Shown: positions 1,649 through 55,336 of the stretch, piece by piece
Position numbering within the stretch: the stretch's first letter is position 1
Layout: every line of letters begins with the position of its first letter
Source: Zychaea mexicana
Lineage: Eukaryota > Mucoromycota > Mucoromycetes > Mucorales > Lichtheimiaceae
Direction of reading: 5' to 3'
NCBI RefSeq assembly: GCF_025766255.1
Contig: NW_026516735.1
Span: forward strand, 1-64,000
Length of the DNA: 64,000 bases
Notes under the pieces: model-generated
Databases searched by the model: none
The model's input: only the letters and a program-made list of their open reading frames with translations
What the model was told of the DNA's origin: nothing
Translations under genes and position numbers: made by a program

Positions 1649-3951
1649 ATGGAGAAACCGCATCCAGTAAATACTACAGTCAAAGCTGACATTGTTGTTG
1701 TAGCAGACAACGCGGTTAAGAAGGGTGATGGTACGTCCATGTCTTCCTACTACGACAAAAATGATCCACACACTATAGCCTCTGAGAAAAAACTACGAAG
1801 GTACATATTACAGAAGCACATAATACCCAGTATTGTTTATACAAGATCCGAGGTGCAATTACTCAAGCAGTTATATATATTCCTTGATCGTTTCTAGAAA
1901 GATGGATATGCACATCATGCCGATTCTGCTGTTTGCAGAATTGTTTGGACGTTACGAACAGTAAGAGTGATTATCAAGACAAATGTGTATATCTTGGACC
2001 ACGGGTTCAGCTGATCACCACTGCACCTTTTCTCATCATGTATGAATCATTATTAATGATAGATCGGTCGTAACGAATGCAAAGTTGGGTGGTCTTTTGG
2101 AAGATTTGAATATGTCTGAATTCCAGTATCGCTGGTGTCTATCTGCATATTATGTTGCATTTTTTGTAGTCAATATTCCTATCAATATTCTCTTTCGTCG
2201 CGGGCGGCCATCCATCTTTTTGACAATCCTCATATTGTAAGTGTGGGAGAAACCTTTTGTGTGATGCTGGGGGTTGTCTTGACTCAAAATCATCTTTTAT
2301 CTACTTCAGTACCTGGGGCACACTTGTCCTGTGCATGACAGCTACCACAAATTTTGCAGGACTACTTGTATGTAGAATCATTTTGGGGGCATCAGAAGCA
2401 GGTAAGTCGATAGCAAAAATAAGCGGGTGGCTAATGATATGTAAATCATGGAACCTTCTGTAACATTATCATATTCTCGAAAAAAAGTGTACGATCCGAT
2501 TCAAATGTACGGCTGTATTTTCTTATTATTCTTTCGTTCACAAAATCAGCACCATTTTCTATCATAAACAGTATTGATGGGCTCCCTCTCTCTCTTTCTT
2601 AATTTTATTGTAGGTACTATATTTCTCTTTGGTATACGAGACACGAGCTTGCTCGACGCTCTGGATTTACGGCTATTGTCTCAGCCTTAGGTGGGGCCAC
2701 AATTGGACTGATAGCATTTGGAATCAGTCAAATACCAACCAACACGTTGAATACTTGGCAATGGTTAGTTTTTTCTGAAGAGAGTGAGATAGCAGAAGAT
2801 CGTTGTCTTAAAAAATTATTTTCCTATTTTAGGCTATTCATCATATTCGGTGCACCATCCATTCTACTCGCAATCGCTACGCTATTCTTCCTTCCCGATA
2901 AACCGGAAACTGCAAAGTTTTTTACAGAAGAGGAGCGTAAACTAGAGTTGGATCGACTTAAAGCTGGTAATTATTCAACGTCACACTTGCATTTCTGCAT
3001 ACTATATAAGTACATAGTATATCTTTCTGACAATGTTACTACTATGTGTGGGTATGATGACTTTTAATGATAGATCAAGGTGCTGCAGAGGATTCAACTT
3101 GGTCGTGGATCCAAGTGAAAAGTGTGTTGACGGATTGGAAAACATATGCATATGGGATTATCTCTGGTTTGAGTACCATCCCTGGTGCTGGTGTGCGACT
3201 TGCCTTACCATCCATCATCGATGGCCTGGGTACCTGGGCAGAAGATATCTCACAAGCTTTGACGACACCGCCAAACATTGTGGCATGTTTTTTTATCTTT
3301 TTGACAGCGTATTATTCGGGTGAGTTATCCAGAATTTTTGTTTGAAAAAAGAAAACTCATCAAATACTACTGTATGTGTATTTTCTCATGTTAGATCGGC
3401 TATTTCAGCGAGCTTACTTTTTGATCGCGGCTAATGTGGTCGCTATCATTGGATTTTTGATGATCATGTTTATCCCAGAACAGCATGTTGGTGTACGGTA
3501 CTTTACAGTGTGTATCCTTATCGCAGCCACGGTAAAATTGTCTCATTTTTCAGTTCGTTTATCGCACTAAGAGAAGAGAGTGCACAACTACTAAAAAAAA
3601 CAATTTCAGCGAGTAGATGGGCCGATCCGTTTAGCATGGTATACCAGTAACCATTACGGCTTGACGCGACGTGCTGTTGCATCGGGCATCATCTTTTGTA
3701 TCGATGCTATCGGTAGCGCTGTGGGTGGTCAGATATATTTCGATCCACCACTGTATTGGAAAGGCCATGCCATCGGACTGGCCACAGTTGCTCTTCAATC
3801 CATCGCAATCTTGACCCTACGATTCACGCTCAAGCGCATCAATAGCAATCGAGCCAAAATGACACCAGAGGAAAAGGAACGGCAAATTGAAAAGTATGGT
3901 GGACATGAGTTGGTTGGTGACAGACATCCTGATTTTAGATATGGATTGTGA
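1649..3951 (+). CDS. MFS permease, allantoate/Dal5-like (ACS) family
   Basis: Probable plasma-membrane transporter of the major facilitator superfamily, anion:cation symporter (Dal5/allantoate permease-like) group, which imports small organic anions, ureides or vitamins. Exons read as 1649-1800, 1898-1960, 2063-2236, 2310-2401, about 2550-2570 (uncertain), 2614-2763, 2833-2966, 3074-3319, 3395-3531 and 3610-3951. Family signatures seen are VTNAKLGGLLEDL after the first membrane segment, the GASEAG motif, LWYTRHELARRSGF (loop with charged residues), and FFLPDKPETAKFFTEEER in the central loop. A conserved C-terminal tail ends in DFRYGL. The substrate cannot be told. One junction (2402-2613) closes in frame only if a further microexon is used, and the first membrane segment looks short, so a damaged copy is possible. 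Confidence 0.8.
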
Positions 3952-4573
3952 ATATGTGATACTGCAATAAGTGATACACTATTGATCGCAAGTGCGATAA
4001 TAGAGGAGACCACTTCCTTGCCCCACGGGATATCACATAAACTTCTCTGGCAGTTCCTGTGTCGTCGTGGCTTTTGATTCTTAATAATCTTTCATTGTGA
4101 TCTGTATGATGAACGCGAGCGTTTTACATAGCATCTCAATTCTCTAATAATAATTATATAAATTCAATAGTTACCAGCTAAAATATGAGCTTCACTAAAT
4201 GCTTATTTTCATGCTTCCTCGGAACATGGATTGGCAAGCATGATAGGGCTCCCACAAAAAGAAAAAGCTTGTGCTACGATAAAATCTCTCGAAATTGTTG
4301 GTGGCTATATGATATATCCACTCGCACAAAAAAAACATGCTATGATAGGTCACGACAGACGTAAACATTTTCAATCAATGTTGCTGTTGCATTTAGGGAA
4401 ACCTAATTAGGTTTTGATTGAACAAATGGGCCTTTTGAATACATTTATTTTTTTTTGCCTACAAGCGAGATATGCACCAGAGACACGTTATGACGGTAAT
4501 GAACTACAGAGCAACAATAAAAAAAATTGGTTGATTCAGTTCTCCTCCATGTCCTACTTTTAATATGTTAAAT
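3952..4573. other. Spacer between convergent MFS permease and POLE2
   Basis: AT-rich 3' flanking DNA of two converging genes. Nothing gene-like is seen. Confidence 0.5.
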
Positions 4574-6523
4574 TTAGAGATAAAGTGTGTACCATTTCTC
4601 AGATAATCGCGTCGCCGGATAATACGTTCTCCAAGAAAAGTCTGAAGTTGGGAAACTGCCCGGGCAAATGCAATGGGTGCCTTCATACGTCAAACCGAAT
4701 GATTCGCATTGATCTGCCAAGATGAGCTATATATGTAGTATGTGTGTATTAGTAGTGCTTATATTGTTCGCCATGGCAACATGGAGTGTAAAGGTTGGAG
4801 TGGCTGAGAGAGCTTACTGCATGCGGTAAGGGGTATAATCGCAAGGCATGATCGAACGCCCAATAGATGGGTTTTACTGTTAAAGGAACCGGGCATAAAT
4901 GGCCTTGATCAATGACTGTGCGTACAAGCTAAGAGAAAACGAGCATGATCGATCAGCCATCTTTCTTTTTTTTCTTGTTTCATCACGAAAAGCTGTCCTT
5001 CATCATTTACATGTTTGGTTGGTTCATCTTCTTCAGTCATTTGAGGGAATAATAAGGAGTTTCGCCATAAGCGACTAAACAAATCTTCGCGGAAAACGAC
5101 GATATCTTGCGTGCAATAGCGTATTCTTGATTAAAAACCCAAATCATTTTAGACTTTTTTTGTTGTTATCATTGGTTTTCCACCCAAAAAAAGGGTACCC
5201 ATGTGCCTATCAACTTACCGACATGGATTCGATGCAAAGATGGCGTTCCGTACTCTTCCTCTCATACGCGCTGTGAACCATTCAGGAATCACTGTCTGTG
5301 GTAAGCTGCCGCCACCCATGGAAGGATCTTTATTACCGGGAACAAACACAAAGTACGAATGTGTTGCTATGCCTCGAAATTCTTGAATCAGGTCTGCCAA
5401 TGCAGTGAAATTATCTGGATAATCCCGTAAGGTAGAGGTTTTCTTCTTTTTTAGTCTCTTTCTCATTTTCTCCGTTGAATATGAATCTATACATATGCTA
5501 CTAGTACTACTAACCTTTATAGACATGTGGATCGATAGAATTGTCTTTACAAAAGTCGCCACAAAGAATAAATGCTAATGGGATCTGTGTGTCGTTTTCA
5601 TAACCTTCAAATACTCGACGCAACGCATTCATCACCTGTTTTTTTTCCAAAATAGCGGGTGTTAGCCTTTTTTCAAGTAAATCCCCGGGAAACAATGAAT
5701 ATCAGTTCTTTACCCGTGGTTCATCGAGGTGCACATTGGATAGAATAGCAAAGAATACATTGGTGTTTGCGACTTCTTCCGCTTTTAGCCGATCCTAATC
5801 TCAAGTGTTAGTGTGTGAAATTCCTGGATCTTACATCATATTTAATTGACTTACCTCTTCCACTTTCAATTTTCTCAATCCAAGGAAATCAACGCCGGAG
5901 TAAAAGGTACTTTTTGAACGGTATAGCACATTGAGTATTGATTACTATATTACCCCCAGTAGCACCCTCGTTTCCCCCCCCCCAAAAAAAAAAAAAACCA
6001 AGAAACTTACTCTGTGAGCGCCCGTGATTCTGGAGGTGGGAAACCAAGTTCTTCTGCATGGAATATATGATCATCACCATAGAGACCTTCGACCAAGGCA
6101 AAAGTGCCGTCGGTAAACATCCCTGCATCATATGCACATGACGAGAGATCCAGCTCTATATGTGCATCCTCATCTTCCAAGAATATTTTCCCTTCTTCCA
6201 GCTGTGTCAACATGCCAAAAAGCAAGAAATGCTCGCGATCACGACCAATGAGCGTTTTGATGGGTGCAATCTGTGAAAGGGGATGTACGCGCAAGTCAAT
6301 AATAGAAAGAAAAAAGGCAAACATATATCACTTTTTACCTTTAGATACGTATCATTATCTGATACATGCGTGGATGGTGGACAGAAATTCTCATTGTGCA
6401 TAAGCCGTTGTTTGATAATATCGAAGCGATCGCGGTACAGGGCAGCTTTTTCATTTGCGGATCCAAGCAATACAGGCTTGTCGTTGCACCTAATACACAC
6501 ATATTTTTTTTCCTGTAAGTCAG

Positions 6524-18596: not shown

Positions 18597-20009
18597 CTAC
18601 TTTGTGTATTTTGCAATGGTACGCTTGGCTCGTTTCCTATTAGTGGCGGGTATATCGTGGTCGGATGGTGTCTTGCTACGTTTTCCTTTACCATAAGCGC
18701 GGGGCGAACCATCTTCATTTGTTATGATAATCTGCGGTGGCGTCGACCGGATGGCATCTTCTTCAGGCGGCGGCGCTACTTTACTTGTTGCTGTTGTTGC
18801 GACGGCTGCGGTGGTGGCACATGCAACAGACTCGTTGTCTTTCTCTACAAGAGATTCTTGTTCGATACGTGTCGCGTCTGCTTCGGCATGTTCATCATCA
18901 TCATCATTCAGCTCATCCATTTCCTCGTCGGTGACTTGGAGTTTATCAAGAAACACAGCCACCGGATACTTGTTCCCATCGTTGCCATTTCCATCGGCTA
19001 TCATTGCTTTTTGACCAACGATGTCAGTGTCGTCTTCTTCCTCTTGAGCAAGTTTGTTGTCATCGTCTTCTTCTGATCCACGATAAGTTGTTGTTGTTGC
19101 TGTTGCAGCAGAAGTGGTAGGTCGCGTCTCATCTTGTACCACAGGCAATTTCTTGGGTCGTCCTGGACCGCGTTTGACATCATCTCTTGCAGTCGTTGTT
19201 GTTGTTCGTAAGTCTGCCTCTGCTGGTATGACCCTGGGAATTTTAATTTTCTTCGGACTTGTCACGCGTTGTTGGTCCTGTTCAACACGTATTTTGCGAG
19301 GTCTTCCAGGTCCACGCTTTTGCTTTGGAGGTCGTCCAGGTCCACGTTTTTCCTTTGGTGACGCAACCAGCTTCGTTGCCTCTTGAACTTTTGGTGGACG
19401 ACCCCGCTTGCGCTTTGGAGCATCTTTGACTATCTTGGGTGGACGCCCTCGTGGTCTTTTTATTGTCTCTGTCGGCTTTGACAAAGACGGCAGTGAAGAA
19501 GTACTCGCTAAAGAAGTCTGTGATTGAACTGCTTGTTGTGCTGCATTTATGGTATCGCCATTCAGTTGTTGTTGATTTTCTTCTGGCCTGATTATCCGAG
19601 GTCGCCCAGGAAGTCGACGTACTTTGCGAGGTCTGCCGGGTCGACGCTTTTCCTTAAGAGGTTCAGTTGGATTTGGAACTTTGCGAGGGCGACCTGGCTT
19701 GCGCTTCTCTTTGGGTTGGGTTTCTTCTTCTGTCCGGATTTTTCTTGGACGTCCCACTTTTCGTTTCACGGTTGGGATCACTTCTTCTGTCCGGATTTTT
19801 CTTGGACGTCCTACTTTTCGTTTCACGGTTGGGATCACTTGAAGAGGTTTCAATTTGCGCGGTCTGCCTGGCTTTCGCTTGATTGGTGTGGGGTCTTCTT
19901 TCATTGGCGCTGTTGCTGTCTGGGCCGGTGTGCTTATGTCATTCGGCGTATGAGTAGTAGAAGAAGAGGTGGTGTTGGTGTCACCATTAGCACTTGTAGG
20001 ATCAGTCAT
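18597..20009 (-). CDS. Multi-AT-hook nuclear protein (11 hooks)
   Basis: A single-exon 470-residue protein. The first two thirds carry about eleven AT-hook cores of the type RKPGRPRK, RKVGRPRKI, RGRPPK and PGRPKK, each flanked by Lys/Arg, which bind the minor groove of AT-rich DNA. The C-terminal third is acidic (DEEMDELNDDDDEHAEAD) and ends in a basic motif (RKRAKRTIAKYTK). Two neighbouring hooks are a near-perfect tandem DNA repeat (about 57 bp, within 19735-19850), suggesting growth by local duplication. It is probably an architectural or HMGA-like chromatin protein; no enzymatic domain is visible. It is convergent with SEH1, 182 bases apart. A GA tract near 20125-20152 lies in the 5' flank. 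Confidence 0.85.
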   Translation of the reverse strand: MTDPTSANGDTNTTSSSTTHTPNDISTPAQTATAPMKEDPTPIKRKPGRPRKLKPLQVIPTVKRKVGRPRKIRTEEVIPTVKRKVGRPRKIRTEEETQPKEKRKPGRPRKVPNPTEPLKEKRRPGRPRKVRRLPGRPRIIRPEENQQQLNGDTINAAQQAVQSQTSLASTSSLPSLSKPTETIKRPRGRPPKIVKDAPKRKRGRPPKVQEATKLVASPKEKRGPGRPPKQKRGPGRPRKIRVEQDQQRVTSPKKIKIPRVIPAEADLRTTTTTARDDVKRGPGRPKKLPVVQDETRPTTSAATATTTTYRGSEEDDDNKLAQEEEDDTDIVGQKAMIADGNGNDGNKYPVAVFLDKLQVTDEEMDELNDDDDEHAEADATRIEQESLVEKDNESVACATTAAVATTATSKVAPPPEEDAIRSTPPQIIITNEDGSPRAYGKGKRSKTPSDHDIPATNRKRAKRTIAKYTK

Positions 20010-20123
20010 CCTTGTGATGGAATTTGTTTGCGTTTGAGAGACAGATGCTGAATCGGAAACACTCGACTTGGTCTTGAGTGAATTTTAGGTAGTTTGCTGC
20101 GAAAAGAAAGGAGAGAACGCGTT

Positions 20124-21329: not shown

Positions 21330-22019
21330 TTCAAAACTGATTAGATAAAAGCTAAGCGCATTATAATTTTGAATCGTCGCTAGCACAAAACAACTCGCCT
21401 ATACAAACTTGGCAAACTTGGCAACTTTGGCGCCGGTGAAAGCTATTGGAGACAAGAGATATTAATAACTTGTTGGGATAGCTTAGTATAATCGTAAGCA
21501 GTGATGGTACATTTCATATTCAATCTATCTATGAGTATTACTAGTATACGTGTATCAGTAGTATTAATCTTGAGAGATTGGTGGCAAGACCCAACAAGTT
21601 GGATTATGTAACTTCCCAAATGAGCTTATGTACTGGGCCTTTTATACTGCAAAGAAATCAAGGCAAACATCATTTAGTTTGGGTTGGCGATCTGGTTCGT
21701 GTATATGTGAATATGGGGATGGTCTGTTTGCTTTGCGATACGGTTTTTTATTTTGCCACCAGCAATTTGCAATCATTGTTGGTATAGTCGTGAAGGTAAA
21801 CCAGCTGTATTGTTTTTGAGAGCACACATGCGAATGCACAGCCTACGGTTTTCTCGACGACTCAAGCACAAAAAGGCTCATTTGCAACTACATAACTGCT
21901 CCAGAGAAAGCACCAACAAGTACCAAGCGCAATGGCAGTAGGAAGATATAAAAAAAAGATCGCGTTTATTACAATCGTCACTCGATCTACCCAATAGTTA
22001 CAATTACATTATTCAAGAA

Positions 22020-22582
22020 AGTACAATAAGAAACCAAGTTTATTTGATGTTGCCTGACAAGTCGACCGACTTTTATGAATCCTTCGTTTCTCAAGGGAGG
22101 TTGCCCTCCCTTGTTCCCCGCAAGCCTCAGTTCCCGGCAGAACCTACACCTCTCCCTTTCTTGTCCACAAGCCTCAGTTCCCGACGGAACCTACTCCTCC
22201 ACAGTTCCTACAAATAAAAGAAACATCAAAAAGGTCTGCCAACGGCGGGAATATACGTACCTCGACTTTTATGAATCCTCCGTTCCCAAGGGAGGTTGCC
22301 CTCCCTTGTTTTCCGCAAGCCTCAGTTCCCGTCGGAACCTACTCCTCCCTTTCTTGTCCGCAAGCCTCAGTTCCCGACAGAACCTACTCCTCCACAGTTC
22401 CTACAAATTAAAGAAATAGCACAAAGGTCTGTCAGCGGCGAACATATACGTACCTCTTTGCACACACTCTCGCTTTCAGTTTTTGAGGAAGATAAAAAAC
22501 CAAGATGAAACTAAGAACTTTGCAACTGTACAAAAGATGAGCAAGAGCCAGTCGTGCACGACTAGCTCCCTTCAACTATGTA
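22020..22582 (-). ncRNA. Left copy of the tandem exon-intron repeat (two intron-like units)
   Basis: On the minus strand, 22401-22453 and 22208-22260 each begin GTACGTAT, contain a CTGAC- or TTGGCAG-type branch region and end TTTGTAG or TTAATTTGTAG. The units between them are near copies of the exon-like units of the right arm. A hairpin palindrome (22529-22582) lies upstream and an AATAAA-type hexamer (minus strand, near 22040) lies downstream. This matches the right-arm array, with fewer units. The plus strand also shows open frames rich in KPQFPTEPTPP, but they are interrupted by the intron-like parts. Transcription is inferred. Confidence 0.45.
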
Positions 22583-23138
22583 CACCCACAGGGCCCCTCG
22601 TCCGGGATAATAAAAAAAGAAAGGTAAAAAGTGATAATGAAAGAAACACTGCAAATGTACAAAGATGAATATGAAGACTAAAGAAAAGAATAAAGGGCAA
22701 AACGCGCAGTCGATTCTTTTTTTTTTATGAGCCCGATAAACAAAATGACGGAGCTTAAAAATTTTGTTGACACTACTGCCCTAAGGAGCCAGTGAACTGC
22801 AGCAATGTGAAGAAGTGCCTTGATGATAATTATCGTTGTAGTCTGTCAACTGTCTTTTTCTTATGGTGCGTATATGTTTGTTTCACTATGCGGCTCCGCT
22901 TGCCGTGCTCCGCTCTGATCCAACAATTGTCGGCGACGGGTCTGTGCGCTTTAATGGAACAAAGAACCGGCGATATAAAAGAGTATGAAACCTGGGGATC
23001 ATGATGATTTTTATATGTGAAGCGTACCCAGCAATACTATTGATACTCGATATGACCTTCTTTTCTTAGCTGACGATCAAGAAACGGCCGCTGCCAATTT
23101 CATCAGCGCAATTTATAACGGTTTGACAATCTCTTTTA

Positions 23139-23310
23139 TGAAACGTGGGGATCGTGATGATTTTCATAAGTGAAGCTTACCACCTATTCAAGAAGATGCT
23201 CGGACTTTGGAGGACCATGCTGCCATGTCCAGTGACGATAACCCTGTCGCCACTACTAAAGGAAGCAACAATAGTAATGATACCTCGCCAACACAGCATC
23301 ATCCATAACC
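23139..23310 (+). pseudogene. 3' remnant of the broken right-arm gene
   Basis: The plus-strand frame reads PPIQEDARTLEDHAAMSSDD and continues about 20 residues to a stop. It corresponds to the end of the minus-strand reading at 44417-44525 (IQEDAWTLEDHAAMS). Everything upstream of this remnant is missing in the left arm. A related 40-bp segment (about 22985-23030 and 23140-23185) occurs twice around the gap. Confidence 0.6.
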
Positions 23311-23567
23311 TGTCCATCGCAATAGCACGAGCCAAATTTAATCTTATATACAAAGTTTTTAATGCAATGGTTTTATCATGTAGAAGCAGGCCCTTCTTTT
23401 TTTATATTCTGGCATACGTATCATATAAAATCATTCAATGCTTATAAAAATCTTATTACTCATAGTTTAACTAACTCTTCTTTACAAATTACTACAGTAC
23501 TGTAATAACAGTTAACGATAGTGATGATAATAGTATGGCTAGTTATATGACAGCAAATATATTGCAT

Positions 23568-43538: not shown

Positions 43539-44244
43539 GTGGTTTTGTCGTGTCAGCGAGTGTGTACTACCCTAAAACTTTCCTTTTTCGAAACACTCTT
43601 CTTGTTACATGCTACTGGCTACTCAAACTCCTCCTCCACATCCATTATCACAGACGCTCATAAGCTTGGAGTAAAGTTCTGCCCAACTGGTGATGTCCCA
43701 TCATTTGAGAAAAAATGACACAGCATTACTAATGAAGTTGAAGAGCTCAAAATCATTGTCTATCATGCTGCTGGGGTGCACTACTACGAATGGTGACACA
43801 ATATGCGGATTCCATATTTCAGTCGATGTGCGCTTTCAAGTTCGCTCTTGTCTTGAATGTGGGGTAGTAATCCAGCCTGAAGGCCTTTTTTACGTGATCA
43901 AATGATGGAATTGCGTGAGGGACCTGGCCTGTGCAATATCTTTACGGTAACATGTTTGTGTGACACTGTAAGATATATTTTAAATCGATAAAATTTGTTT
44001 GGGATTTGTCTTGCGGCGATGGTTAATCCGATCTATACACGAGCATCGTTGAATCAGGATGCTGGGAGCCATTGTTAGACATTTGCTCTAGTGTGAGCAT
44101 AGGTAAAAGCACCCATTCGGTCCGATAAGTGCAATTTTGGTATTGTTGCGTCCGTTGCGTCTGCCGCCGCACGGTAAGAAGTATGCTCTCTTTGCGAATT
44201 GTTTGCGTACGAAGCACTAGACATATTTATGTAAACCGGTGAAG
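43539..44244. other. Spacer inside the right inner border
   Basis: Contains short open stretches on both strands (for example around 43690-43905 plus and 44023-44217 minus). Neither has a recognisable family or splice support. Confidence 0.35.
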
Positions 44245-44416
44245 CATAATATCAAAAAAATGAGGACCTGCTTCTACATAATAAAACCATTGCATTAAAA
44301 AACTTTGTCCATAAGATTAAATTTGGCTCGTGCTATTGCGATGGACAGGTTATGGATGATGCTGTGTTGGCGAGGTATCATTACTATTGTTGCCTCCTTT
44401 GGTAGTGGCAACAGGG

Positions 44417-45513
44417 TTATTCATTGGACATGGCAGCATGGTCCTCCAAAGTCCAAGCATCTTCTTGAATAAGTGGTATACGTAAGGCTGAAATGACGCT
44501 ATCACGATGAGTAGACATGCTGCTACGGAATGGGTTGGTCGATGCTGTTGAAGCTGAGCGCGCTACTGTACTACCGCCAGCGCTTGCTAATGCGATGTCC
44601 CATAACATTCTTCCTTTGTTATTGTTACTGTTATCGCCAGAATCTGTTTGAATGTGTTGAGGTCTCTGCTGCTTAGACTCGTCAGTGGTATTAGAGGTAG
44701 AACTATCGTTATTGACACTGCTTGCATCGGTTGTTGCTGTGATGTCAGATGCATGTGCGCCCGTTGCCCACCCTTGCTGCCATCGTGCTGCAATTTTCTT
44801 CAAGAGCCAGCTTCCTCGCTTGCCACCGTCACCGCCGCCGCCGTTGCCTCCAAAAGCATCCATCTCAGGTGATTGACGTGATTGATCATGGATAGTAGGT
44901 ACAAATGCTGGAACATAGGCACCACCACCAGCTGGTACCGTATTGTCTTCTGGCGGAGCACTGACATGGAAGATGGATGCATGGAGATTGTTATAGGTGG
45001 ATTCGCGGATGACAGTAGTAGGAGGGCGTTCGACTGATGAGGTTGCTGCAGAAGCTTGATGTAGTTGTGTAGCGTAATTGTATGCAGCTGCTGTACCGAA
45101 AGGATCGATGGCGGATGCTTGAGACAACCAGCTAGCATGTGGATTGGGTCGATATGGATCATATTGCTCCTGTTGTCCTGCCTGAATTCTAATGTTGTCA
45201 TGGTTATCCGCAATGGCATGCGTCGGAGAAGAAGGTCCAAAAGCTAGGTTGCATAGTACTGTTGATCTTCAAATGTTGCGGGATCCAGTTCTTCTACCTT
45301 GGGTTGCCGGTTATTATAATTGTTGTATGTAGCAACAGCCAGTACGCCAGCTCCAACAGCGCCGGCCATACCTGTAGCTGCTGATTATGGCAGTGGCGGT
45401 CATTGTAGCGATCACTCAGACATGCCTGATTGAGAACCACCACGCAAATAATCCTGCTGGCTCTCCATACTGCATAAACGTGACAACGAGCGACCCACAG
45501 CTGTACCTGTCAT
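44417..45513 (-). pseudogene. Broken gene for a Ser/Thr-rich protein, possibly membrane-attached
   Basis: Minus-strand readings in order are MTGTAVGRSLSRLCSMESQQ from 45513, then MAGAVGAGVLAVATYNNYNN from 45369, then, after a shift of frame near 45245, FGPSSPTHAIADNHDNIRIQ and YDPYRPNPHASWLSQASAID. The end is RMLWDIALASAGGSTVARSA and IQEDAWTLEDHAAMSNE. There is a short hydrophobic Gly/Ala segment near the start and a long disordered part. Against the left-arm remnant, two bases are missing just before the stop, so this copy ends about 20 residues early. The family is not recognised. An intron could join the first two pieces, but the later frame change looks like true damage. Confidence 0.6.
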
Positions 45514-46395
45514 GAGCGATACCAAAATACTGTGCTTTGAAGTCTATGGTTATTGTGAATGGCGTTGCGTATCACACGCCCACAGCTCTGAGGTCGTCCT
45601 TTGCTGCCGTCTTCTGTTCGACTCTGTTCAACCTCGTGCGCTCGGGTACTGACTTGACGCGATCGTCGTTTTTGACGAGGGCACACACAAGAATAATCGC
45701 ACTTGTAGCTGGGCCAGCAGTAACATCAGCAATCGTTCACCTCATAAATTGGCTGCTGTTGTACAAATGCTTCTCAGCATCTTCACACTCGCCGGTTCCT
45801 TATCAGTTTTTGATTTCCAGGATATTCAATTCTACCGGAAATTGATTAAAGGATCTTTTACTCAATATATTGACGACCGCAGGCTGCATCCGTTGAGGTA
45901 TCATTAGGAATAACGAGCGCTCTATGCACGTAAACTGTACGATCCATACAAGCATAATGCTGCTGTGGTGCTTCAGCTTAACACACAGTTTGTCCAACGG
46001 TAAAATGAAAAAAAAATATTAACGGTTCTTTGTTCCATTAAAGCGCACAGACCGTCGCCGACATTGTTTGATCAGAGCGGAGCACGGCAAGCGGAGCCGC
46101 ATAGTGAAACCAACATATACGCACCATAAGAAAAAGACAGTTGACAGACTACAACGATAATTATCATCAAGGCACTTCTTTACATTGCTGCAGTTCACTG
46201 GCTCCTTAGGGCAGTAGTGACAACATAATTTCTAAACTCCGTCTTTTTGTTTATCGGGCTTCATAAAAAAAAGAATCGACTGCGCGTTTTGCCCTTTATT
46301 CTTTTCATATTCATCTTTGTACATTTGCATTGTTTCTTTCACTATCACTTTTTACCTTTCTTTTTTTTTTATCCAGGACGAGTGTCCCTGTGGGT

Positions 46396-46643
46396 GTACA
46401 TAGATGAAAGGAGCTAGTCGTGCACGGATGGCTCTTATTCATCTTTGTGCATTTGCAATGTGGGTGTATAAAGATGCAGGGAGCTAGTCGTGCACGACTG
46501 GCTCTTATTCATCTTTGTACTTTTGCAGTGTTTCTTTCACTATCACTTTTTACCTTCTTTTGATTCGGGACTACGGTCTTGGTGGGTGTACAAAGATGAA
46601 GAGAGCTAGTAGTGCACGACTGGCTCTTGCTCATCTTTTGTAC
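46396..46643 (+). repeat. Three tandem hairpin palindromes
   Basis: Copies lie at 46396-46450, 46466-46520 and 46588-46643. Each is an imperfect palindrome of about 55 bases centred on AGTCGTGCACGACT, with outer arms GTACAAAGATGAA and TTCATCTTTGTAC. RNA from either strand could fold into a long stem. One copy lies in the left arm at 22529-22582. Confidence 0.75.
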
Positions 46644-47790
46644 AGTTGCAAAGTTCTTTGTTTCATCTTGGTTTTTTATCTTCCTCAAAAACTGAAAGCG
46701 AGAGTGTGTGCAAAGAGGTACGTATATGTTCGCCGCTGACAGACCTTTGTGCTATTTCTTTTATTTGTAGGAACTGTGGAGGAGTAGGTTCTGTCGGGAA
46801 CTGAGGCTTGTGGACAAGAAAGGGAGAGGTGTAGGTTCTGCCGGGAACTGAGGCTTGCGGGGAACAAGGGAGGGCAACCTCCCTTGTGGAGGTACGTATA
46901 TGTTCGCCGCTGACAGACCTTTGTGCTATCATATTTCTTTTATTTGTAGGAACTGTGGAGGAGTAGGTTCTGTCGGGAACTGAGGCTTGTGGACAAGAAA
47001 GGGAGGAGTAGGTTCCGACGGGAACTGAGGCTTGCGGAAAACAAGGGAGGGCAACCTCCCTTGTGGAGGTACGTATATGTTCGCCGCTGACAGACCTTTG
47101 TGCTATCATATTTCTTTTATTTGTAGGAACTGTGGAGGAGTAGGTTCTGTCGGGAACTGAGGCTTGTGGACAAGAAAGGGAGGAGTAGGTTCCGACGGGA
47201 ACTGAGGCTTGCGGAAAACAAGGGAGGGCAACCTCCCTTGTGGGTACGTATATGTTCGCCGCTGACAGACCTTTGTGCTATCATATTTCTTTTATTTGTA
47301 GGAACTGTGGAGGAGTAGGTTCTGTCGGGAACTGAGGCTTGTGGACAAGAAAGGGAGGAGTAGGTTCCGTCGGGAACTGAGGCTTGCGGAAAACAAGGGA
47401 GGGCAACCTCCCTTGGGAACGGAGGATTCATAAAAGTCGAGGTACGTATATTCCCGCCGTTGGCAGACCTTTTTGATGTTTCTTTTATTTGTAGGAACTG
47501 TGGAGGAGTAGGTTCTGCCGGGAACTGAGGCTTGCGGAAAACAAGGGAGGGCAACCTCCCTTTGGAACGGAGGATTCATAAAAGTCGAGGTACGTATATT
47601 CCCGCCGTTGACAGACCTTTTTGATGTTTCTTTTATTTGTAGGAACTGTGGAGGAGTAGGTTCCGTCGGGAACTGAGGCTTGCGGGGAACAAGGGAGGGC
47701 AACCTCCCTTGAGGAACGAAGGATTCATAAAACTCGGTCGACTTGTCAAGCAACATCAAATAAACTTGGTTTCTTATTGTACTTTTATAA
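46588..47790 (+). ncRNA. Tandem exon-intron repeat array; putative spliced repetitive RNA
   Basis: Six intron-like segments lie at 46718-46770, 46892-46949, 47069-47126, 47244-47301, 47442-47494 and 47590-47642. Each starts GTACGTATAT, carries a branch-like CTGAC or TTGGCAG and a T-rich tract, and ends TTTGTAG. They are 53 or 58 nt long. Between them are near-identical exon-like units of 121, 119, 117, 140 and 95 nt starting GAACTGTGGAGGAGTAGGTT. A final unit is followed by AATAAA at about 47757. Most units are not multiples of three, so no long frame survives splicing, which favours a non-coding RNA. The opposite strand has proline-rich open frames, but these would run through the intron-like parts. 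Splicing and transcription are inferred. Confidence 0.5.
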
Positions 47791-48434
47791 ATAATGTCAT
47801 TGTAACTATTGGGCAGATCGAGTGACGATTGTAATAAACGCGATCTTTTTTTTATATCTTCCTACTGCCATTGCGCTTGGTACTTGTTGGTGCTTTCTCT
47901 GGAGCAGTTATGTAGTTGCAAATGAGCCTTTTTGTGCTTGAGTCGTCGAGAAAACCATAGGCTGTGCATTCGCATAGGTGCTCTCAAAAACAATACAGCT
48001 GGTTTACCATCACGACTATACAACAATGATTGCAAATTGCTGGTGGCAAAATAAAAAACCGTATCGCAAAGCAAACAGACCATCCTATATTCACATATAC
48101 ACGAACCAGATCGCCAACCCAAACTAAATGATGTTTGCCTTGATTTTCTTTGCAGTATAAAAGGCCCAGTACATACGCTCATTAGAAAAGTTACATCATC
48201 CAACTTGTTGGGTCCTGCCACCAATCTCTCAAGATTAATACTACTGATACACGTATACTAGTAATACTCATAGATAGATTGAATATGAAATGTACCATCA
48301 CTGCTTACGATTATACTAAGCTATCCCAACAAGTTATTAATATCTCTTGTCTCCAATAGCTTTCACCGGCGCCAAAGTTGCCAAGTTTTTAGAAGCGCAT
48401 TGTTTTGTGCTGCTAATGATGAGTCAAAATAATA

Positions 48435-49394
48435 CAGTTGTACCCCGGTTTTTGCAACCCCCGGGTTTGCAATTCCTCGTATATCTGCAACTTTTTTTGA
48501 AAAATCCAAAAAAAACTTAGTAGTTTCGCAAATTTGCAACTTGCAAATGAGTTTATACGATTTGCACGTTATCGGGGTAAAAACAGCTTCAATTTCTGCA
48601 ATATCAACTGAAAGAAGCATCTGTTGCGGATTATGAGGAATAAAATGATACGGTTACTGCAAGATAAATATGTAAATATGAAGATGTATTTATTGTCAAA
48701 ATAAAAATTATTACTTGGTAGTTGAGCCGGTAGAATCGGGACACATATATAGCACTGATTGGGTTGAATCAATAAAAGAAATGAAGAAGATATAAGAAAA
48801 AGTGAACACACTACATATAGATATAGAAATAAAATGTTTGCTCAAATGAGCTTTCAACTATATACATCGAAGAAGTCATCAAGGGATGATTGTCGGGAGA
48901 ATGATTGCTGCCTGAGACTCTCTTGAATCCTACGCAAAGACTTCTTTAAGTCGCAGTCATCGATATTATTTAAAAAGCTCAAAACTCCTGCAATTGCAAC
49001 CTGTTTTTCCTTTGACGTTGGCCCTGGAATAGGCGAATCAGCGCTTTCGTCCACCGCCCGCTCAAGTGCTCGTCGTAGGTTCGATCCTCTTGCTTAGAGG
49101 TGAACTTGTGGAACGATTTTGTCATGCTTAAAAGAGCTAATAATTATCAAACCACTAGACAGCTTAATAAAAGAACGGTCTTATATATGCAAGTAGTAAC
49201 ATTTAGAGCTGTATGAATATTCCCACAGAACGTATCGTACATAATCTCTGACAGATAAACAATGGGCTAGTGTTAATAGGATGACTTATCCAGTGTCTAT
49301 TTGAAGCAGAATTGTTTACCCCGTTACTTGCAAATCCTCACTTTTTGCAAAAAAAATCGGAAAACCCTCGGTTGCAAAAACCGGGGTACAACTG
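48435..49394 (-). mobile_element. Pogo/Tigger-like DNA transposon, internally deleted, 960 bp
   Basis: Terminal inverted repeats of 25 perfectly matching bases begin CAGTTGTACCCCGGTTTTTG at 48435, with the complement ending at 49394. A TA dinucleotide flanks both sides (48433-48434 and 49395-49396), as expected for Tc1/mariner/pogo insertions. Inside, the minus strand keeps the C-terminal end of a transposase. Secondary TIR-like sequence (TTGCAA-rich) follows on both sides. The orthologous empty site is kept in the left arm near 21362. Confidence 0.85.
48854..49054 (-). pseudogene. C-terminal fragment of a pogo/Tigger-type transposase
   Basis: Reads MDESADSPIPGPTSKEKQVA then VLSFLNNIDDCDLKKSLRRI and SRQSSLDDFFDVYS. 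The acidic/proline-rich linker and the closing QSSLDDFF helix resemble the region after the DDE catalytic core in Tigger/CENP-B-like transposases. The DNA-binding and DDE domains are absent, so it cannot move itself. Confidence 0.55.
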
Positions 49395-49430
49395 TAATGT
49401 GCTTAACTTTAATTTTCTTATTTTGAGATT

Positions 49431-52400
49431 GATTTACTCCCCTTCTTTGTCTTGTCATGATCGCCTGCTTTTCCAAACTACACCGAAACGGCATCCGGCA
49501 AGCCGGTTTTCAAGAGACATTCAGAAATGTGGTAAGGTCCGTACAATTTTTTTGTTAGCGTTGAAGTCTCAAAAATTACTTGGAGCTATACTACTGAAAT
49601 TCTTCATGCAATCTAGTAAAGCTACTTCGGATTTTTTGATTTGCTCGACTCTAATTCGATATCAATACTGGCGAAAGTATCAAAAGTAGGGAATGGTGAT
49701 AAGGAAACCCCGATCGGATCTATACGTTTACAGTAGTTTGATCCAAAAACGGTACATATTGTTGCATTTACTACTTCTCCACGAAAAGTGCAGTATCGAG
49801 TTTCTGGATAACACAACTACCGCTACTATGCTCCCCCTTTCTCTCACAGGTCAATTAATACTCGCGAGAGTGCAGGCTAGTACTCCTTTAAATTCCAAGT
49901 TCATACCAAACCATAAGTGTAGCTATACAATGAACTGTTTATGCATGCACTCATTCTAATTTTATTGATCCAGCTAATCTATAAAAAACTTGACAACGCA
50001 AAAAAAAGTCCATTTGTCGTAACCAGCTTTTTGATAGGTCGTACCTTCTTGGTTGAAACCGAGTGAGATGGGTAAGTGCCTAATTTGCACTGTACATACC
50101 TAAAGAGATGATTCAATGCCTTTGTGCCGTTCTTCTACTTTATTGTATATGTGTATATGTGTATAGCATGATGTGCCACATAAATTATTCATGGAGGTTA
50201 CGCGACAGAAATAATGCGAGGATGATAACTAAAATGATAAAAGAGTCATTCTTCGCCTGTAAGCGCGAGGGAGAAGTAACGCAAGCTCAAACGCCATTGA
50301 CAAGGTGGATTCCGTTTACGAAAAACGAATGGTCAAAACCAGGGAATAGCGGGAAAAAAGGCAATACCAGCGCGTTATAAAATATCGTATAAGCCTTTTT
50401 AAACCAAGCTTTGACAACGCGAATCCGCAGCAGTCGGTCAGGTCAAGCTTGACTTGAAGTCAAGCGTGTCTCAATTGCTGCCGTTGATGGCCATTTGTTT
50501 CAAATGGATCTTTGCATCACAGAAAAGAAAAACACAGACGCAACCTCGTTTCTTTCTTTCAAGAACTATAGCAGGGTCCGTGCGTAGAGAACACGGTGTC
50601 AAAGAGTTGCCACCGCTTCATATGCACTTGAAAGAGATCCTAAATCTCAATCAGTACAATCACAAACAAAGTACAAAAGTACATCACAAGGTCGATCAGT
50701 AAGCGAGAGATCTTTCTTTGTGAATTGGGATGTCATTACCCAACGGATTATCAACTTTTCGTTATAATAATCTTTTTGTCATTTTCTTATTGTATTTTAA
50801 AGAGAAACCCTCTTTTCTAGGAAGTTCCAATAGAAAAAGAGGGGAAAAACTCCTGCTGTCTCTTTTTTCCAGGAAGACAACAAAACCTGATCGAAGACGC
50901 AGGTAGTGAATGGTCGCTACGCAATGAGAGACCTTCGCCATTCACTAGTGGCGCCCGTGCCGTGTGTGCCCACAACGTCAACTAAGCACAAAGACGCCTC
51001 AAGGTTGTTGTATTACGTTGATGCAGCCCTAGGGCATGCTTCCAACAACCTTGCTACCGTTGAAGCATCTTTCGGGTGAAAATATCCACCTCGACTCGGC
51101 GGATAGCTTTCCAAGTCAAGGATTCACACAACACTTTGCGCTTCATAAAGTTTGTGTAAATGGAACTGAAGAAGAAAAAAAAATGGGAGGGATGGGGGGT
51201 TTTTGGTATTCTTATTCAGACAATTTTTTTTGCCGTCACGCTCGGGTCTTCAATGAAAATCCATCATTTTTGATTGGCTCCGCTCTGGTTGGCTCCTTTT
51301 ATGGACCGCTTATATCATATGACGCAACTTGGCCCAAAAGCAAAGGGAAGGGGAAGGAGATGTGTAAGTGATAGTCGTCGTGAAGAAGTCAAATACGCTA
51401 TAGCAGCAGTGATCGACATGCTATGTATGTTTCACCATGCCGATGTACCCTCCGATACTGTCGCCGCTTATTTTGAAAAGAAGCGTCGGTGCACACACCC
51501 AGCCTCCGCGTCAAATACAGGTACGTTTCGATTGCCAACTTTTTCAATGAGTACGCAAGAAAAAAAAAAGTGCGACTGAACAACTCAATTAGAAATGGCA
51601 AGGAAGAAAGACAGAATGCCAACGATGATTAAGAACGACGGATGAGTGCTCGTGTGCGATCTGGGAAGCAGTAACTGCTAATTTGCCAAGGACTCGCATC
51701 ATTTGCCCTGGCGGACCAGATATCTACAAGTGATAATGTGGATTCTGTCCGACCCATGGAGTATTTTGTTGAAATTCGCTCGACCCAATTCCTTCCAATT
51801 TTTCATAGGTTGCTGATTTGTTATGTACACGGTGGCGAAGGTGTGGCAAGCTCCTTTTGCGATTGGGTAATAGCGCTGTCATACTAGATGACGAGGACTG
51901 GTTATGTGTCATTCTATCAGGACCTTTCAATTCTACGATGCTTGGTTCTCCTGTTAGACTTTGCACTGCATTCTCTTTTAAAACCGCCTCGTTTTTACAC
52001 CTCTTGGGGCTTGGAAAACTCCTCGTTGTTGATACATCCTGTAGTTACTGGGAGTATTGCAATTAGACAATTGTCAAGAGCTCTACGTCATAAAACATAT
52101 TACCAAATTTGTTGACTAAACTCTTCTTTATCCGAATATACAAAGCTGTCTGTTCTCTCAAATTGATAAACACAACTGAATGCTTAATAAAAGGCAGCAG
52201 CTGATGGGCGCGACTCTATATCTACGCACTCATTATTCCCTGGATTGCGATCGCCTATTCTGGTGCTCCCGACGTTCAAGCTATACAAGTTCTGAGGTAC
52301 TCTCGTTTAAAAAGGAAGAGTCATTCTCACTTCTTTTACAAACTCTCAATCAAGGTCTTTCTTCATATTATCCACGATGCAAAACATACAGTTGATTAGG

Positions 52401-54122: not shown

Positions 54123-55336
54123 TTAGAAACCTGAATCGATAGCAAAATGATGACGTACTTGATGCTGCAGGCTCATTTCTTGCATTGCACGGATAGCGGC
54201 CTGAATAGTTCCTACAGCGCGTCGTGCAGCTATAACATGCGGTCTCAAAGTTGTAACTTGTGCAACTAGCCATTTTAGTGTGTCAGCGTCTTTCTATAAT
54301 ACATAATCGAATTAGTGAGCAGCTATCAAACTCCTTAACCAGCATTCACTTTGCTTTTTCGTCCTTCTGCATCCCAAACCAGCTAACCAATCATGACTTT
54401 TGCTGTACCATTAGTATACAGTATAATAGCAATTATTACCTGGGAAAACCTTGGGAGATTCCGCATATCTCTTTCCAGACCGTTGAATAGTCCGTCCAAC
54501 GTATGAAATTGTCTTTGCAGCGCATTTAACCACTCTTCCAACGTATAAAGCTGTCCTTGCAACTCGTTCAATCCTCCTTCCATGGTTTCAAAATGTCTTT
54601 GCATCCCGGTCAACCCTTCTTCCAACGTTTCAAAATGTCCTTGCAACCCGTCCAACCCTCCTTCCAACGTTTCAAAACGTCCTTGCAACCTGGTCAACCC
54701 TCCTTCCAACGTTTCAAAACGTTCTAGCAACGCGGTCAACCGTCTCTCCAACGGGTTATTACCATGATGCATTCTCATGGTTTCGAGTGCAGTGTCGATA
54801 GTATTCATGTTCCGGATGACCTGTTCGACCTATTTCGTTTTGATTATCGTTTCCCGAGGTATAAAAAATTTTAAATAGTAGAATAATGGAACTTGTGAGT
54901 ATCACTGCTTCTTTTGTTTCTCTCACGTCATTCACTCGCGCTAAATCGTGTCTGATATTCTCAAAGTAAACCAGGAATATGTAATTGTCGCAATTTTTTC
55001 ATGAAGGAGAAAACTTACCTGTTCTCTCAAAGCTTCAAGCTCTACTGCATTATCGGTGTCATGTGCGCCTGGTGCTGATGCGGGTGGTTGCATTATCAGT
55101 TGAGCGGCATGAATGGAAAGGTTGACGAAGGCAGAAAACCAAACAGTAAGAAAAATAAAGGTAACAAGGACGAGCACTGAAAGGTAAGTGAGCTCCTTCA
55201 ACGGTAGCTGTACAGTGACGTTCACTGCAACCAACTCTTGCTTCTCGAGTAAAATGGGGTTTTCGAAAAAAGTGGGATCTTTCAGTGGATTGTGGTCTTT
55301 GAATGGATTGTACATTTCGCATGAATTGTAAGACAT
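54123..55336 (-). CDS. Single-pass membrane protein with 14-residue coiled-coil repeats
   Basis: Exons are 55019-55336, 54440-54829 and 54123-54293; both introns are GT-AG in phase 0, giving 292 residues. The N-terminal 45 residues are polar (MSYNSCEMYNPFKDHNPLKD). One membrane segment follows (LTYLSVLVLVTFIFLTVWFS). Then comes a coiled coil whose core is six to seven copies of a 14-residue unit like RFETLEGGLTRLQG, that is two heptads each. The last exon continues helical (LKWLVAQVTTLRPHVIAARR, AIRAMQEMSLQHQVRHHF). No family recognised. An upstream in-frame ATG at 55411 would add 25 residues. It could be an organelle-surface tether or spacer, which is inference only. Confidence 0.72.
54475..54745 (-). 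repeat. 42-bp tandem repeats coding for the coiled coil
   Basis: Successive 42-base units (for example CAACGTTTCAAAATGTCCTT and near copies) repeat about six times and keep the frame of the membrane coiled-coil gene. The inner copies are nearly identical and the outer ones have diverged. Confidence 0.8.

Follow-up and report, generated by a model that had tools for sequence, protein, structure and literature searches.

A dispersed repeat with intron-like cassettes and circularly permuted copies in the genome of Zychaea mexicana

Introners sit in many different genes, and circular nuclear DNA is known from the same fungal order as Zychaea in the form of the circular plasmid of Absidia glauca; the known fungal nuclear plasmids of this kind are protein-coding. 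Among dispersed repeats, region B of wine yeasts is a 17-kb Zygosaccharomyces bailii segment dispersed via an extrachromosomal circle, and its permuted copies, little breakpoint homology and working origin led its authors to a circle model (PMC3053389, in the part of the report drawn on here). According to the same part of that report, region B is large and gene-bearing and reaches at most 4 copies per yeast strain. Fungal introner-like elements, in turn, are described in the corresponding excerpt of PMC4457414 as invasive introns that multiply.

Here, we analyze a repeat with intron-like segments from Zychaea mexicana, found in the first 64,000 nucleotides of contig C276 (this whole stretch being the window), together with its relatives in the genome of the same fungus (G000; 50.3 Mb, 305 contigs). 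Like region B, as far as the cited part of its description extends, the repeat has circularly permuted copies at unrelated sites, possible tandem integration, an inferred circle, and little or no breakpoint homology (2-3 shared nt at some region B breakpoints). Unlike region B, the Zychaea unit is small and noncoding, is present in tens of copies belonging to two families within one genome, and has a shared intron-bearing, RNA-like module with a variable number of cassettes. By analogy, the circle-mediated dispersal of region B in wine yeast appears to be the closest precedent within the published text considered, and we regard it as probable that a noncoding, circular, nuclear element dispersed by DNA circles has the array in the window as its core. 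It would belong to the circle-dispersed repeats and stand apart from them by its unusual, spliced-looking module; a description of it was not found in the open-access literature, as covered by titles and the openings of abstracts under the search terms used. Unlike plasmids of the Absidia glauca type, it is noncoding and known here from integrated copies alone.

The intron-like array and the element around it

The initial annotation had described six consecutive intron-like segments with splice signals, preceded by hairpins and followed by poly(A) signals, as well as two such introns in a reverse-oriented copy to the left. All of these features were confirmed, including the hairpins at the array start (units at about 46305-46654); the coordinates originally assigned to the array thus enclose real features, but they leave out the flanking parts of a longer dispersed element. 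The features of both copies in the window are as follows.

44223-49747, plus strand: element copy of the long type with a nested MITE inside (blastn of the window against own-genome loci)
44417-45761, minus strand: antisense fragment in the long unit, from the 3' part of a host gene (an open relative of 697 codons lies at C101:167241-169332; homologues in Mucorales)
46305-46654, plus strand: tandem strong hairpin units (repeats and folds; 1 to about 5 copies in other loci)
46718-46770, plus strand: intron-like segment 1, 53 nt (sequence signals, intron scan over loci)
46892-46949, plus strand: intron-like segment 2, 58 nt (sequence signals, intron scan)
47069-47126, plus strand: intron-like segment 3, 58 nt (sequence signals, intron scan)
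47244-47301, plus strand: intron-like segment 4, 58 nt (sequence signals, intron scan)
47442-47494, plus strand: intron-like segment 5, 53 nt (sequence signals, intron scan)
47590-47642, plus strand: intron-like segment 6, 53 nt (with the terminal exon, the module common to both families)
47643-47838, plus strand: terminal exon with two hairpins, then AATAAA (sequence, folds, family comparison)
48156-48164, plus strand: TATAAAAGG, candidate promoter (sequence; string shared among family-1 entries)
48435-49394, unstranded: nested pogo-like MITE (TA on both sides, at 48433-48434 and 49395-49396; 25-nt inverted ends by eye)
21362-23411, minus strand: second element copy, reverse-oriented, partial, with two introns (sequence comparison)
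22208-22260, minus strand: intron-like segment of this copy (sequence, junction scan of loci)
22401-22453, minus strand: intron-like segment of this copy (sequence, junction scan of loci)

All six segments of the plus-strand copy start with GTACGTAT and finish with TTTGTAG, with CTGAC, TTGGC or TTGAC about 20 nt in. The exons between them measure 121, 119, 117, 140 and 95 nt, one of the five being divisible by three, the cassette periods are 174, 177, 175, 198 and 148 nt, two of the five not being divisible by three, and AATAAA occurs at 47759-47764 and again at 47833-47838. Tandem repeats are strong in this region (TRF score up to 1293). Because the array units are 94-97% alike throughout, the earlier argument from a full splice-site grammar kept in every unit is weak within the array itself. 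Its matches elsewhere in the genome place the array inside a dispersed noncoding element, of which it forms the middle part; it is neither a stand-alone gene nor an introner burst. The two ends of the 44223-49747 copy lie about 370-390 nt apart on the circular map of the unit (see below), and the MITE, 960 nt long with matching inverted ends and a TA on either side, breaks the element homology in the window and has a 94.5% relative in L015. The TATAAAAGG string is present in 22 of 33 family-1 entries, in L037 outside the element; on a circle, this candidate promoter would point round to the hairpins and cassettes.

Searching the genome with the window array yielded at least 91 matching stretches, from the 40 best candidates, and 38 places were fetched together with 3 kb of flanking sequence to the left and right, as far as the contig extended. 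Family 1 comprises 33 entries, namely 31 loci (L009-L039) and the two window copies, and a script counted 93 introns in 32 of these entries, one to six per entry. GTACGT starts 90 of the 93 introns and TTTGTAG finishes 87; the GT and AG columns are invariant in all of them, as are several other columns. Since the number of introns per entry ranges so widely, array length is unstable, and the unequal halves of a tandem dimer (L009 with six introns, L020 with three or four by different counts) indicate therefore that the array expands and contracts. In these respects, it seems to behave like an unstable tandem repeat that contains an intron-like segment. Processed (spliced) copies were considered and rejected: the exon-exon junction of a spliced copy was found 0 times in the fetched loci, compared to 91 acceptor-exon strings, and two exact 15-mers for the spliced junction had 0 matches in the genome. 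With no exact spliced junction in either search, the copies thus look DNA-derived.

The reading attached to the array by the initial annotation held up in part. Its preference for an RNA over a protein is borne out by the mixed exon lengths, the two cassette periods that are not multiples of three, and the four scanned open frames, none of which reaches a Pfam cut-off, and its proposal of a family of multi-intron repeats by the recurrence of the intron-like signals in a second family, in a shared block that is only about 79% alike. In contrast, introner-like amplification found no support, as the array, family 2 and a 19-mer of the terminal exon, each used as a query, led only to loci of the element class (the first two among the best 40 candidates), and the same intron in many unrelated genes was not encountered in any of these searches. 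Like fungal introner-like elements, in the excerpt of PMC4457414 used here, the array combines a large number of almost identical introns with good splice signals; unlike introners, its introns occur only in this element class, among the matches listed and in the 19-mer search. It also resembles intron gain by tandem genomic duplication, as outlined in the part of PMC4974935 drawn on, in that tandem duplication is tied to intron number, and differs from it in that whole intron-plus-exon units multiply inside a mobile noncoding repeat. Tandem exon-intron arrays can hence be a by-product of unstable repeats and not of intron-gain machinery.

A module common to two families

The 19-mer from the terminal exon occurs at 50 places in the genome, 45 of them exact, compared to 0 and 1 for the backwards control. 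Nineteen of these 50 places were assigned by coordinate to family 2, and L040-L046 were fetched. The block clearly common to both families extends from a few bases before the donor to past the second poly(A) signal, scoring 171 in one pair of loci, where the best of five shuffles reached 51; upstream, at map positions 1632-1857, between-family similarity is weak (score 81 against a maximum of 61 in five shuffles). The block holds the donor (GTAAGTAT/GTACGTAT), a branch-like motif (CTTGACA/CTGACAG) and the acceptor (TTCTATTTGTAG/TTTTATTTGTAG). No viral contigs with an 18-mer of the terminal exon were found.

This recurrence bears on the possibility that the intron-like segments are an inert minisatellite spacer that gives rise to no RNA, their splice signals being relics of recent amplification. 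Such a spacer would account for the high likeness of the cassettes, for their number of 1-6, and for GT and AG columns that are not clearly more constant than others; it sits less well with a donor, a branch-like CTTGACA and an acceptor that recur at the same place in family 2, and with a clearly shared block that starts just before the donor while similarity upstream is weak. We therefore regard an inert spacer as rather unlikely. An intron and terminal exon common to otherwise different families suggest that the RNA module is important to the element.

The two hairpins of the terminal exon recur in family 2. In family 1, the longer one consists of nine pairs capped by a GCAA loop; in family 2 there is a tenth pair, gained on both sides (as seen in the folds and by eye, outside the column counts). 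Two-sided change was observed in 1 of 23 predicted pairs in a 13-sequence alignment, and the old copies L038 and L039 break some predicted pairs; with covariation this slight, an RNA structure of the terminal exon is plausible, not proven. Compared with shuffled sequences, the upstream hairpin unit at 46584-46650 folds much better (z of -4.7) and the terminal exon only moderately so (-1.5, -2.4 and -0.6 in three copies); for an internal exon, z is -2.75. A known RNA family was likewise considered and rejected: Rfam returned 0 matches at the gathering cut-off in the window, L022, L044, L034 and L032, and the weak matches, which stay far under the cut-off (E 0.0002 to 4.5), involve seven miRNA models and one snoRNA model, all on the hairpin repeats.

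Circular permutation and integration sites

Copies of the element rarely share ends, and both opening points and flanks vary between them. As native map we used L022, which consists of one unit plus a 774-nt redundancy and whose own terminal direct repeats (98% alike) set the unit at 3462 nt (~3.46 kb). On this map, start and end coincide within 45 nt in 13 of 25 copies and within 10 nt in 9, compared to a mean of 2.0 (maximum 9) and a mean of 1.0 (maximum 7), respectively, when end pairing was shuffled in 20,000 runs. For this test, L009 and L020 were joined as one copy, and L017, L021 and L036 (contig ends), L025 (mixed tandem), L033 (sharing its left flank with L011) as well as L038 and L039 (old, decayed) were left out. 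The ends of L012, L013, L016, L023, L027, L029, L030, L032, L034 and L035 were extrapolated or read by eye, and because some map positions were read by eye, the closure test was repeated without a map by seeking the last 150 nt and the first 150 nt of each copy in other loci (24 copies, L013 being left out for its inversion; boundaries entered by hand except for three left ends found by script). Here, 12 of 24 copies have ends that adjoin within 45 nt in 14-24 other loci, and the remaining 12 close in no other locus. The gap is at most 8 nt in the nearest loci listed for 8 of the 12 closing copies; L016, L023, L029 and L032 leave gaps, the nearest measuring 10-19 nt map-free and 18-41 nt on the map. 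The 12 non-closing copies are partial ones, including both window copies, and L022 with its redundancy of 752-771 nt. Roughly every second dispersed copy tested is a circular permutation of the ~3.46-kb map, which is longer in the long units, and most of these copies span one unit.

The closing points lie at about 540, 666, 853 (L013), 887, 953, 1020, 1050, 3260, 3362, 3369 (twice), 3440 and 3460. These 13 points of the map test fall within 1290 of 3462 nt (37% of the map) and spare the hairpin-cassette-poly(A) part; for the largest empty arc, p is 6e-5, or 4.6e-4 with near-identical points merged to 11. The opening points of L018, L031 and L034 are no more than about 10 nt apart, and these three copies are possibly not independent; L018 and L031 have the opening point in common and different flanks. 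L013 (C284:748880-755733) closes only by hand reading, if 70 unaligned AT-rich bases belong to the unit. This copy seems to be a complete unit in which one segment is inverted, possibly the record of a circle isomer or of a later inversion.

L009 and L020 form an exact tandem dimer with a TA-flanked pogo-like insert between the units, and L025 is a mixed tandem of one short and one long unit. Flank repeats amount to 0-3 nt among the 24 copies compared, with 3 nt (CAG) in L015 only, and no consistent target duplication was seen; end overlaps of 2-9 nt occur in several copies. Permutation, missing target duplication and junctions of the end-joining or microhomology kind are all features of circle-dispersed repeats. 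The right flanks of L010, L014 and L015 start with TA-CAG. Moreover, a left flank is common to L011 and L033 and a right flank to L033 and L036, which we read as probable segmental duplications that include a copy of the element. A fragment at C137:39425-40057 and another at C68:367346-367764 abut (query positions 633 and 632), which would fit a single copy broken apart by a rearrangement.

Family 2 is likewise permuted in the two copies checked. On the L044 map (~5.46-kb unit), the copy at C282:123759-129209 starts at 1115 and, after passing round the unit, stops at 1112. The other, at C273, has an identical stretch of nine bases at its start and its end, and its left flank recurs at a near-identical place on C282. 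A further copy, on C12, runs from 3795 to 3437, so that about 360 nt are absent; among the matches listed, many family-2 places are without the 3440-5457 part of the L044 map, and a tandem run of family 2 stands at the end of C256.

Given the mixed tandem at L025 and the run on C256, some copies may come from arrays. Taken further, a satellite-like tandem array could break up and repair could scatter its fragments, unit-length copies then being array pieces formed without any circles. The L009-L020 dimer would fit such a process as well, as would the three contig ends that fall inside family-1 copies (L017, L021, L036). However, linear pieces need no equal start and end phase, yet 12 of 24 copies have it, and chance would give 2 of 25 in the map test; later recombinational contraction keeps an equal phase but does not create it. 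Break-up of an array as the general source of the copies is thus quite unlikely.

We consider it very unlikely that the repeat is a transposable element of a conventional kind (LTR retrotransposon, Penelope-like, Helitron or MITE) whose body is noncoding and whose ends were misread. The 774-nt terminal direct repeats of L022 resemble LTRs or a Penelope partial tandem and had prompted an LTR reading, which was dropped since the ends differ in nearly every copy. Direct repeats of at least 80 nt at a distance of at least 1.8 kb occur in 3 of 38 loci (L009, 111 nt; L022, 774 nt; L025, 1.1 kb), and fixed terminal repeats with target duplication, as expected of LTR elements, were not found among the 38 loci checked for repeats. 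Penelope-like retroelements can be tandem or partly tandem, retain introns and capture host sequence, as do the copies described here (PMC3846280, in the part of that report used), but here no consistent target duplication, as sought for this class, was found in the 24 copies compared, flank repeats being no longer than the 0-3 nt given above, and half of the copies end at the point where they start. The window and the four loci scanned have no Rfam match, and three loci have no tRNA.

Captured host gene, coding potential and proposed mechanism

The gene carried antisense in the long unit has a full-length open frame of 697 codons at C101:167241-169332, beside an element copy, whereas in the 26 further stretches that match it the open frames are 42-302 codons long. 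Its homologues (16 proteins) come from Circinella, Fennellomyces, Lichtheimia, Backusella and others, and the carried gene is therefore a Mucorales gene. In short units, the match is confined to roughly the last 140 nt of the gene. Because the gene stands next to an element copy there, the C101 place is a candidate parent of the captured gene; that copy is a mixture of short and long unit, which is not proof of an origin at this place. An element-encoded replication protein was rejected, as the 283-codon frame at 44417-45268 is the 3' part of the host gene; no replication gene was found. A protein encoded on the opposite strand of the array, where proline-rich open frames of 152, 189 and 204 codons occur, is extremely unlikely. 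The longest frame matches Pfam twice below threshold (E 0.0002 and 0.0065), over 11-14 residues, but these frames shift between units owing to the two periods not divisible by three, cassette number varies between copies, and none of the four array open frames scanned reached a Pfam cut-off.

We favor dispersal by circles because the ends of copies abut in other loci, because copies have the length of one unit, and because there is no consistent target duplication. Monomer and dimer DNA circles would form by recombination between tandem units or persist as an episome; they would open once and be end-joined into chromosomes, sometimes via a few bases of microhomology. The TATA promoter would drive one long transcript round the unit, through the hairpins and spliced cassettes to the AATAAA signals, the cassettes having presumably multiplied by ordinary tandem duplication of intron plus exon. 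At some time, presumably as a circle, the element captured the 3' part of a neighboring host gene, of which short units retain a small remnant. Permutation and unit length in about half of the copies, the missing target duplication, the two families and host-gene capture are seen in the sequence itself; free circles, their replication, the TATA-driven transcript, its splicing and a function of the RNA are steps that we infer. With some 50 places and two families in one genome, such dispersal would make circles a standing route of repeat spread in these fungi. A more far-reaching proposal, which we offer as speculative and consider unlikely, is that these are selfish nuclear circles of a new class in Mucorales: protein-free replicons that join a constant module of intron, two-hairpin terminal exon and poly(A) signals to an interchangeable passenger, including captured host genes, and that open outside the RNA core before being end-joined into chromosomes, the RNA serving their upkeep and cassette number tuning its output. 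The family-1 closing points, which spare the hairpin-cassette-poly(A) part of the map, would fit this proposal.

Two other repetitive features were observed in the window. An array of 21/42-nt units (TTCCAACGTTTCAAAA.. CCTTGCAACCC), with about six copies of the 42-nt unit, occupies 54481-54753. Furthermore, a 495-codon open frame on the minus strand (18597-20084) is rich in repeated RGRPP/GRPRK motifs, which we take to be AT-hook-like.
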